Shown here: positions 33,209 through 36,399 of the stretch, piece by piece | Numbering within the stretch: position 1 is the first letter of the stretch | Layout of the letters: each line of letters opens with the position of its first letter | Source: an uncultured Eubacteriales bacterium | GTDB lineage: Bacteria; Bacillota; Clostridia; Lachnospirales; Lachnospiraceae | DNA length: 64,000 nt | Assembly: GCA_900314555.1 (NCBI GenBank) | Contig: OMVQ01000009.1 | Coordinates: 1 to 64,000 of the forward strand | Direction: 5' to 3' | Notes under the pieces: generated by a model | The model's input: only the letters and a program-made list of their open reading frames with translations | Databases searched by the model: none | Told to the model about the DNA's origin: nothing | Translations under genes and position numbers: made by a program

Positions 33209-34690
33209 TCAAATAATTATGCATATAACCCCACCATTGCTTTCATTTGTAATCTTTTCTAATGTATCTTTTAGTTTATTCTGGGTTTCATCTGAAAGCT
33301 TCTCTAATTTATTACGAATACCCTCTTCTACAATCTGTTCAATAGATTTGCCGAATATATTAGTTTCAAATATTCCATTTTCATTCTCTTCACCGTTAGA
33401 TTTTATGTAATCAATAAGATCCTTTGCCTGGTCCTCATTACCGACAATCGGTGCAATTTCCGTAAGCACCTGTGTTTTTATCATATGAATTGATGGTGCT
33501 TCTGCCTTTATCTTGATTCCGTATTTACTTCCATTCTTGATTATCTCAGGCTCACCTAAGACAATTTCCTCCTTAGATGGCGTAACGACACCATATCCTC
33601 TGAAATTAACATCTGCCATCGCATTTGAAAACTTATCATATTCATTCTTAAGGCTCGAATAATCCTTTAAGGCATTAATAAGATTATATTCATTATCAAT
33701 CTCCATTCCTGTCAGGTCACTAAGAACCGTATAATAATGTTTATCCTCCATTTCAAGATTAACATCAATATTTCCCGTTGATAAATCTTTCTTATCAATC
33801 TTAGAATGTTTAATATATTCTGAAGTTATATCTTGAAGCCTGAATGTATCTTTTACACTTCTCATATTAGAGATAAATTCTTTTACAGTATCAATTATAC
33901 TTTTCTTAAAATAATGTTCATCATCTAACATTTCCACCCACTTAGGAATTCTGAAACTTATTGTTGAAATAGGAAATTCATACAGAACTGTTTCTAATAT
34001 TTTATTTATCTCATCTTTCTTTAGCTGTGCACAGTTTATAGGAATTACCGATACCTGATTTCTTGAAGCTATATCCTCTGCAAGACTAATTGTCTCCTTA
34101 GCATATGGTTTTTCTGAATTAAGCAGGACCACAAAAGGCTTTCCTAAACTTTTAAGCTGGTTAATCGTTCTTTCCTCAGGCTCTACATAATTCTCTCTTG
34201 GAATATCACCAATCGAACCATCTGTCGTAATTACGATACCTATTGTAGAGTGTTCGTTAATTACTTTCTTAGTTCCAATCTCCGCTGCCTTTGTAAATGG
34301 TATATCATAGTCGAACCAAGGTGTTTTAACCATTCTCTCCACATTGTTCTCAATATGGCCTGTTGCACCCTTTGTCATATATCCTACACAGTCAATCAGC
34401 CTTATTTTCACTGTCATTTCAGGAGATATCTCGATTTTGGCAGCTTCTTTAGGAATGAATTTAGGCTCTGTAGTCATTATGGTCGTTCCCGTTGCACTCT
34501 GTGGGAGTTCATCTTTGGTTCTTTCCCTGATATTTTCATCTTTAATCTCCGGAATAACCATCAGGTCCATAAATCTTTTAATAAATGTTGATTTTCCGGT
34601 TCTTACAGGTCCGACTACTGCAAGATAGATTTCTCCATTCGTTCTCTTATTAATATCTTTATATACATCATATACATTCGATTTCTCCAT
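33209..34690 (-). CDS. spoIVA: Stage IV sporulation protein A
   Basis: SpoIVA is the ATP-hydrolysing protein that polymerises on the forespore surface as the base of the spore coat. At 493 residues it has the normal length. The N-terminal P-loop reads AVVGPVRTGKSTFIKRFM (about 25-42), followed by the TKDELPQSATGTTIMTTEP block, a DCVGYM Walker-B-like segment, and the C-terminal polymerisation domain ending in GGVICIII. Its presence argues for a sporulating organism or recent ancestry. The ribosome-binding site is inside a 13-bp hairpin, described separately. Confidence 0.96.
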   Translation of the reverse strand: MEKSNVYDVYKDINKRTNGEIYLAVVGPVRTGKSTFIKRFMDLMVIPEIKDENIRERTKDELPQSATGTTIMTTEPKFIPKEAAKIEISPEMTVKIRLIDCVGYMTKGATGHIENNVERMVKTPWFDYDIPFTKAAEIGTKKVINEHSTIGIVITTDGSIGDIPRENYVEPEERTINQLKSLGKPFVVLLNSEKPYAKETISLAEDIASRNQVSVIPINCAQLKKDEINKILETVLYEFPISTISFRIPKWVEMLDDEHYFKKSIIDTVKEFISNMRSVKDTFRLQDITSEYIKHSKIDKKDLSTGNIDVNLEMEDKHYYTVLSDLTGMEIDNEYNLINALKDYSSLKNEYDKFSNAMADVNFRGYGVVTPSKEEIVLGEPEIIKNGSKYGIKIKAEAPSIHMIKTQVLTEIAPIVGNEDQAKDLIDYIKSNGEENENGIFETNIFGKSIEQIVEEGIRNKLEKLSDETQNKLKDTLEKITNESNGGVICIII

Positions 34691-34693
34691 AGA

Positions 34694-34737
34694 AATACCC
34701 CCTTGCTATGCTTATACAATATATGCAAGGGGGTATT
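34694..34737 (-). promoter_or_regulatory. Hairpin that sequesters the spoIVA ribosome-binding site
   Basis: AATACCCCCTTGC and GCAAGGGGGTATT form a perfect 13-bp stem with an 18-base loop. The second arm holds AAGGGGG, seven bases before the spoIVA ATG. Any transcript that begins upstream of 34737 would have its ribosome-binding site paired. Structure is seen; control is inference. Confidence 0.75.
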
Positions 34738-34745
34738 GATTTATG
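34718..34745 (-). promoter_or_regulatory. Candidate sigma-E promoter of spoIVA
   Basis: Minus strand CATATATT (34718-34725) resembles the sigma-E -10 box CATAnnnT. CATAAA 14 bases upstream (34740-34745) is a partial -35. Transcription from here would start inside the hairpin loop and leave out the pairing arm. Confidence 0.45.
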
Positions 34746-34822: not shown

Positions 34823-36271
34823 CTATTTATGCATAGAGAAACTGTCCATATCATAGTTCTTCAAATTATCGTGAACATTACGTTCATCTGCCTGACTAAT
34901 AAGTTTATCTCTTGATCTCTTTGACTTAAGCACATCTGCATGTCTGCTAGGACCACCTACGCAGCCGCCCTCACAGGCCATTCCCTCTATGAAGTCTGCC
35001 GGAAGTCTACCTGCTTTAAGTAATAATAAAGCTTTCTTACATTCTGCAGTTCCATCACATTTCATAACATTTATATCTGCATTTTCGCCTGTCTCTTTCA
35101 GACATTCCATTACAGCATTGGCAACGCCGCCGCCATTGCCGAATCTCTTACCGAATACACTTGCTTCCTGCAATGTATTCTCTTCAGGCATAAGTGTCAC
35201 ATCTTTAGCTCTTAACATCGCTCTTATCTCACCAAATGTAAGAACATAATCTGCATTATTCTCAAGGCTTTCATCTGCGGCTTCGCTCTTCTTAGCCACA
35301 CATGGTCCTATGAATACAGTAACTACATCAGGGTCCTGTGCCTTTAACATTCTTGAAACCGCACACATAGGTGATACTGTAGTAGAAACATTCTCTAATA
35401 ATGTTGGAAAATGCTGTTTGATAAGATTAACAAATGCAGGACAGCATGAAGTTGTCATCTTCTTGCCCTCTTTAAATGCTGCTGCCCACTCTTCTGCCTC
35501 TGAAGCCGCAGTCATATCTGCACCCAAACCAACTTCTACCATATCAGCAAAGCCTATCTTCATAAGTGCTGTTCTCCAGCTTGCCATCGTAATATCATCG
35601 CCAAACTGTCCTTCAGTAGAAGGCGCTATCATAGCAACAACTCTCTTGCCTGCTCTTATATCATTTATAATATCTACTATAAATGATTTAGAACTGATTG
35701 CACCGAATGGACAACTGTGAATACATTTACCACATTGGATACATTTTGTCTCATCTATTTCACACAGACCATTCTCGTCCATAGTTATCGCATCAACAGG
35801 ACAACTTCTCTTACATGGTCTCATAAGATCTGCAATCGCATTATATGGACATGCCTTTGAACATTGTCCACACTCCTTACATTTAGATGGATCTATATAT
35901 GCTCTGTCCCTTGTCATTGATATTGCGCCAAAATGACAGGACTGTTGACAGGCCTTAGCCATACATTTCTGACAGTTATCCGTTACAACATATCTTGAAA
36001 TCGGACAGCCCTCACATGCAGAATTAATAACCTGTACAATATTCTTACTGTGCTTCTCGCCTGGACATTTGCCCTCAGCAAGTCTTATTCTCTGTCTGAT
36101 TACTTCTCTTTCCTTATAGATACAACATCTGAAATGTGCCTGTGGTCCCGGAATTAATTTATATGGAAGCTCCTCTTTCATATCATCAAGTTCACCGGCA
36201 TATGCAAGTTTCGCAACCTCATAAAGCAAATCATGCTTAATTTTTAAAATAGTAGCATCATTAGATACCAT
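34823..36271 (-). CDS. [FeFe]-hydrogenase-family protein (group B-like)
   Basis: A 482-residue iron-sulfur protein. The N-terminal third has many Cys motifs for 4Fe-4S clusters (CEGCPIS, CQKCMAKACQQSC, CKECGQCSKACP, CIQCGKCIHSCP). The H-cluster domain has TSCCPAF near 275, GPCVAKKSEA near 320 and GMACEGGCVGGP near 435. TSCCPAF instead of TSCCPGW is the mark of the little-studied group B. It is probably soluble and may oxidise or evolve hydrogen, or sense redox state. The ATG at 36271 has GGAG seven bases upstream. It lies just upstream of spoIVA in the same direction. Confidence 0.85.
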   Translation of the reverse strand: MVSNDATILKIKHDLLYEVAKLAYAGELDDMKEELPYKLIPGPQAHFRCCIYKEREVIRQRIRLAEGKCPGEKHSKNIVQVINSACEGCPISRYVVTDNCQKCMAKACQQSCHFGAISMTRDRAYIDPSKCKECGQCSKACPYNAIADLMRPCKRSCPVDAITMDENGLCEIDETKCIQCGKCIHSCPFGAISSKSFIVDIINDIRAGKRVVAMIAPSTEGQFGDDITMASWRTALMKIGFADMVEVGLGADMTAASEAEEWAAAFKEGKKMTTSCCPAFVNLIKQHFPTLLENVSTTVSPMCAVSRMLKAQDPDVVTVFIGPCVAKKSEAADESLENNADYVLTFGEIRAMLRAKDVTLMPEENTLQEASVFGKRFGNGGGVANAVMECLKETGENADINVMKCDGTAECKKALLLLKAGRLPADFIEGMACEGGCVGGPSRHADVLKSKRSRDKLISQADERNVHDNLKNYDMDSFSMHK

Positions 36272-36399
36272 ATTAGAACTCCTTTCTAATACCATAGCTC
36301 ATAGTTTGTTAAATTAATAACTATCTCCTATTCTAACACGTATTAATAAATTTTCCTACTATAATATGACCTTTTTTATTATTTTTTTTATATTTTTCT

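Follow-up and report, generated by a model that had tools for sequence, protein, structure and literature searches.

Sporulation genes are interspersed with genes for growth, and leakage of morphogenetic proteins or of regulators could carry a cost. How, then, might such a gene be kept quiet behind a neighbor that reads in the same direction? The window analyzed here (the whole 64,000-nucleotide stretch of DNA) carries on its minus strand spoIVA, encoding stage IV sporulation protein A (33209-34690; TIGR02836, E = 7.4e-192, above the cut-off). Upstream of it, on the same strand, lies the gene of a monomeric [FeFe] hydrogenase of group B1 (34823-36295; TIGR04105, E = 1.4e-185), the presumed source of read-through. 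A simple scan of the gap between the two genes (loops of 3-8) found no terminator-like site on the spoIVA strand, and read-through from the hydrogenase gene into spoIVA is plausible from this arrangement.

In the spoIVA leader, the Shine-Dalgarno sequence (SD) is buried in a hairpin, and a sigma-E-type -10 box lies at the edge of the loop. In the order of the minus-strand RNA, a 5' arm, AATACCCCCTTGC (34737-34725), is followed by an 18-nucleotide loop (34724-34707) and a 3' arm, GCAAGGGGGTATT (34706-34694), the two arms forming a perfect 13-bp inverted repeat. The SD, AAGGGGG (34704-34698), lies within the 3' arm, and a T-rich tail, TATTTCT (34697-34691), separates it from the spoIVA ATG, which begins at 34690. 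The -10 element CATATATT occupies 34725-34718, so that its first base doubles as the final base of the 5' arm, and CATAAA (34745-34740) lies 14 nucleotides upstream of it. The 5' arm thereby sits in the spacer between this box and the -35 element (ACATAAATC, 34746-34738, with ATA at 34744-34742). These positions confirm what an earlier note on this DNA had described, namely a perfect 13-bp stem hiding AAGGGGG before the spoIVA ATG and a sigma-E-like -10 box with CATAAA 14 bases upstream. An Rfam scan of the window returned only a tmRNA and two tRNAs, and thus no known RNA family at the spoIVA leader.

As any C-run readily pairs with a G-rich SD, such a hairpin could in principle have arisen by chance. 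The RNA of the repeat folds with a z-score of -3.25, and none of 200 shuffles was as stable; this fold used the plus strand, for which the repeat is symmetric except for G-U pairs. In a 309-kb genome sample (the window plus about 245 kb from the same genome), spoIVA ranks first among 254 SD-bearing genes by Watson-Crick stem and duplex energy. Its SD-hiding Watson-Crick stem measures 13 versus 10 for the runner-up, and a stem score of at least 9 occurs in 12 of the 254 genes. A DNA search of the organism's own genome found no second copy of the element, and a covariance model built from spoIVA leaders matched this genome at spoIVA only (E <= 1). The genome rank, together with conservation across the family and control genes without such stems (both described below), refutes a chance origin, which we consider hardly credible.

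Comparison with relatives indicates that, across Lachnospiraceae, the arms are conserved as complementarity and not as sequence. The family set comprises 141 spoIVA leaders, drawn from a fetched subset of the 190 spoIVA-bearing family genomes; six loci without a recognized SpoIVA start were dropped (L012, L113, L178, L180, L213, L216), as were six duplicates (228 to 222). Many of these genomes are metagenome assemblies, and simple rules were used for calling ORFs, choosing starts and setting stem thresholds. Translation starts were picked by SD score, which could favor G-rich sites, and the recA, gpr and spoIIIAA controls were handled alike. In 98 of the 141 leaders, pairing between the upstream half and the SD half exceeds that of 95% of dinucleotide shuffles, and in 60 it exceeds that of all 200; the leader's own arm outperforms all 40 swapped arms in 38 (3.4 expected). 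The covariation of the arms that the earlier note had proposed to look for is thus present. The strict label used in several counts below (stem score of at least 9) is missed by about half of the spoIVA leaders and is noisy, since visible hairpins with G-U pairs or bulges escape it (L003, L118, L124).

The pattern of changes also bears on the idea that the repeat works as a DNA palindrome at the promoter, either bound by a regulator or extruded as a cruciform. The repeat does bracket the -10 box, as such a model would have it. A palindromic operator, however, should keep its arm sequence, and among the 120 of 170 Lachnospiraceae-wide leaders with a Watson-Crick stem score of at least 7, there are 115 distinct 5' arms: arm sequences are free to vary while pairing is kept. 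Mismatches in these 120 stems, read on the sense strand, are more often G-U than A-C (57 versus 29; p = 0.003), as expected if RNA, not DNA, is under selection. Furthermore, the flanks are unequal, with 4.28 T of six bases on the 3' side and 2.51 A of six on the 5' side, so that the T-run lacks an equal 5' A-run. The operator was rejected on the variety of arms, and we hold the palindrome reading as a whole to be very improbable.

Additional support for pairing comes from an alignment of 82 of the 170 leaders, in which double-sided changes number 49 against 22.0 +/- 3.5 in shuffled controls and the true pairing register beats every slid register; these leaders were picked for having a stem, so that the pair counts lean towards structure. 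A MAFFT/RNAalifold consensus retains five pairs only, because the stem register slides between species, and pairing was therefore assessed by swap and shuffle tests that need no alignment. Outside Lachnospiraceae, pairing reaches p <= 0.01 in 2 of 54 leaders, and the design is thus mostly confined to this family among the leaders sampled. Mapped onto a 51-row SpoIVA tree, the stem label needs 16 changes, and 186 of 500 shuffles are as low; the label is therefore not clustered on the tree. Separately, two of eight same-genus genomes (G002 and G003), both well above 90% complete, have no SpoIVA match, a possible loss of sporulation within the genus.

What would allow spoIVA to be expressed despite the hairpin? 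Read against the consensus letters of sigma-E promoters, 126 leaders anchored on CATA alone share ATA at -19 to -17 (75, 78 and 73%) and the -10 motif CATATAYT, and the -35 element of the window lies in the same register. The box spacing in these 126 leaders agrees with the sigma-E model of PMC517825, which comprises an 8-bp -35 block, a gap of 12 +/- 1 bp and a 10-bp -10 block; the same paper has B. subtilis spoIVA switched on by sigma-E. From these sequence matches, spoIVA of the present organism would likewise be expected to depend on sigma-E. With the start assumed to lie 14 nucleotides after the C of CATA, the window message would begin near 34711 (+/- 2), inside the loop, where the earlier note had placed it.

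Because the 5' arm fills the spacer between the -35 and -10 boxes in the CATA-anchored leaders, the predicted sigma-E message would lack it. Of the 94 stem-bearing leaders with a -10-like box, 91 have their entire 5' arm ahead of the predicted start. The claim that the authentic message lacks the distal arm is thereby supported by the promoter position with its conserved -35 box and by the predicted start. In the window, the predicted openness of the SD (taken at -14 to -8 before the ATG), located as it is inside the 3' arm of a stable hairpin, is 0.00 in read-through RNA and 0.69 in sigma-E RNA; the family means are 0.07 and 0.59. By this folding model, read-through RNA would be silent.

Since a T-run adjoins the hairpin in most relatives, in the manner of an intrinsic terminator, not only translation but also transcription may be subject to the lock. 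The last six bases before the start codon hold 4.36 Ts in leaders with a core stem (n = 104) versus 2.35 in those without (n = 63; p = 1.8e-13), with the stem search barred from these six bases. That the T-run tracks the stem even under this restriction argues against a purely translational lock, in which the hairpin would hide the SD of read-through RNA and the T-run would merely be a favorable spacer between SD and ATG. Such a lock also sits poorly with the distribution of separate upstream terminators, which are more frequent in co-directional leaders without a stem (10 of 48) than in stem-bearing leaders (3 of 72; p = 0.006), and which occur in 1 of 17 stem-less divergent and 6 of 30 recA leaders. 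It gains from the 26 of 97 stem-bearing leaders whose T-run is only 1-3 long and from the window itself, where the tail, stronger in relatives, is weak and poor in Ts once the outer A-U pairs complete the 13-bp stem. At the window spoIVA, the translational lock should accordingly dominate. As a full account of the element, we judge the purely translational lock somewhat unlikely.

A stem occurs in 66 of the 114 leaders whose upstream ORF is co-directional versus 6 of the 23 in which it is opposite (p = 0.006). Among co-directional leaders, it occurs in 52 of 69 at distances of up to 100 nucleotides and in 14 of 45 beyond (p = 5e-6); with a shuffle-based label, the counts are 60 of 69, 27 of 45 and, for opposite ORFs, 8 of 23. 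Neighbor orientation shows no significant link to the stem in nine phylogenetically independent pairs (median p = 0.63), the independent-pair comparison of neighbor distance with pairing is underpowered, and the six stem-bearing divergent leaders have no obvious source of read-through. Terminator-like hairpins ending at -12 to -4 are found in 50 of 72 stem-bearing leaders and 13 of 48 stem-less co-directional leaders, compared with 0 of 17 stem-less divergent and 0 of 30 recA leaders. On these sequence features, transcription would probably terminate at the T-run in leaders where that run is good.

Could the element, then, do no more than terminate the upstream gene, sharing bases with the SD to save space and hiding the RBS as a by-product? 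The T-run and the short intergenic distance would fit, and in one same-genus relative (L008), the hairpin, the T-run and an internal -10-like box are kept with the SD outside the hairpin, which speaks for a role in termination. Against this stand the SD within the arm in nearly all stem-bearing cases (by construction of the search) even where space is ample, the weak tail in the window and the long loops, which are unusual for terminators. We consider a pure terminator unlikely on balance. The earlier reading as a lock on the ribosome-binding site therefore holds as far as the covarying arms, the placement of the promoter and the co-directional link are concerned, but it is incomplete given the terminator-like T-run of most relatives.

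A hairpin followed by a T-run, commonest at the end of a co-directional gene within 100 nucleotides, looks like an insulator, and the reading that we consider probable is that the spoIVA leader is an insulating element bypassed by its own internal promoter. RNA from the upstream gene would carry both arms, and the hairpin would hide the SD; in most relatives, and perhaps weakly in the window, hairpin and T-run would in addition stop transcription immediately ahead of the start codon. Over the same bases would lie the sigma-E promoter, its -35 box preceding the hairpin, its spacer made up of the 5' arm and its -10 box placed at the edge of the loop, so that the mother-cell message would start in the loop, lack the 5' arm, form no hairpin and be translated. 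Insulation would thus probably consist of a hidden SD in all cases and of ended transcription where the T-run is good. A compact, self-releasing element of this type would keep spore genes quiet in growth and would explain how they stay off without dedicated repressors.

The earlier note had described the lock at spoIVA; the design is not special to that gene and recurs before spoIIID, yabP and some spoIID genes, and is as a rule absent at recA, gpr, spoIIIAA and spoIIP. For this comparison, leaders of other genes were taken regardless of structure from up to 45 family genomes per gene. Excluded were seven loci of the SpoIID search whose frames were partial or considerably longer (L439, L442-L447), four spoIIID fragments (L314-L317) and a gpr locus that was broken (L537); of the 29 gpr leaders, 28 were long enough for the stem count. 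A stem of at least 9 is found in 73 of 141 spoIVA, 11 of 26 spoIIID, 9 of 30 yabP and 4 of 23 spoIID leaders, and is rare at spoIIIAA (1 of 30), spoIIP (1 of 30), gpr (2 of 28) and recA (1 of 30). In the swap test, the leader's own arm falls in the top tenth for 15 of 26 spoIIID and 17 of 30 yabP leaders, compared with 3 of 30 for recA and 4 of 29 for gpr. The spoIID leaders by themselves give weak evidence, with p = 0.03 relative to the own-genome background and p = 0.09 relative to recA plus gpr. The organism's own genome (G000) contains spoIVA, spoIIIAA, spoIIP, yabP and gpr and has no SpoIIID match at E <= 0.001.

A model of the spoIVA leader applied to 60 genomes revealed further sites, of which 40 were fetched; 36 of these 40 precede an ORF of at least 30 amino acids. 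At least 15 of the 40 front sporulation-family genes, several of them below the curated cut-off: SpoIID (L378, L382, L395, L411, L417), PdaB (L381, L384), PdaA (L393), YabP (L388, L406), CotS (L399, L408), SipL (L403), SpoIIM (L404) and SpoIIIAA (L400). Others precede genes not recognized as sporulation genes, among them VanY-like, ClpP-like, Cu/Zn superoxide dismutase and ABC_trans_CmpB genes. As the model contains the -10 box and is thereby biased towards sigma-E genes, the argument rests on the unbiased leader counts. We see an even chance that much of the mother-cell sigma-E regulon of Lachnospiraceae is insulated by self-bypassing terminators, the promoter spacer having evolved to complement the SD. 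Each would unite an intrinsic terminator, a sigma-E promoter and an SD in about 50 bp; transcripts from outside would be both ended and untranslatable, and the transcript from inside would escape both. Such elements would offer a ready design for leak-free gene insulation and a sequence signature for spotting mother-cell genes in uncultured bacteria of the gut and rumen. As a separate observation, one Cu/Zn superoxide dismutase-like gene (L401:1012-1503) lies behind a long, near-perfect hairpin enclosing the SD and may encode an unrecognized spore protein.

The principle itself is already known. The large hairpin of B. subtilis sigG (spoIIIG) reportedly goes back to Masuda 1988 and Sun 1991. 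In PMC5942855, this hairpin of 20 or more bp is proposed to prevent the translation of transcripts that read through from the upstream spoIIG operon, whereas RNA starting at the sporulation promoter of sigG itself cannot form it; the logic of locked read-through and free own-promoter RNA is thus shared. As described there, sigG is one gene of Bacilli with a sigma-F/sigma-G promoter, whereas the present cases are several mother-cell genes of Lachnospiraceae with sigma-E-type promoters, in which the 5' arm is the promoter spacer and a T-run adjoins the arm. The same paper describes a small RBS hairpin at sigG that likewise holds the SD within a sporulation leader; unlike the present hairpin, which should be absent from the gene's own RNA, it has 5 bp, forms in that RNA and dampens expression 2-4 fold. 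In phage T4 I-TevI, I-TevII, I-TevIII and segB and in Aeh1 mobE, a stable structure hides the RBS in early or middle RNA, and a late promoter starts RNA without the arm (PMC2988022, in part); these serve temporal phage control with no terminator tail reported in that portion of the paper, in contrast to the sporulation genes and T-run of Lachnospiraceae. Intrinsic terminators share the G+C-rich stem followed by a T-run with most relatives, but in the present element the 3' arm holds the SD, the start codon follows within about 8 nucleotides and a promoter lies inside. The open-access literature yielded no report of the design at spoIVA, spoIIID, yabP or sigma-E genes of Lachnospiraceae. What appears new is its deployment across several sigma-E genes, the arm being part of the promoter spacer; this use is broader than in the precedents, and a terminator has likely been added.

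Other SD-bearing hairpins were seen in passing. At L249:13045-14512, the SD of a gene that by eye is trpE-like lies within a 9-11 bp stem (AACCTTCATTT/AAATGGAGGTT), and a T-run comes after this stem. Additionally, a recurring hairpin leader of the organism's own genome (GCGATTCCTTCGGC ... GCCTGCGGAATGGAG) supplies the SD to unrelated genes at L252:11170-11683, L252:4142-5090, L249:375-1464 and L247:2056-2722, which by eye include a flavodoxin, a regulator, a tryptophanyl-tRNA synthetase and an ABC ATPase.
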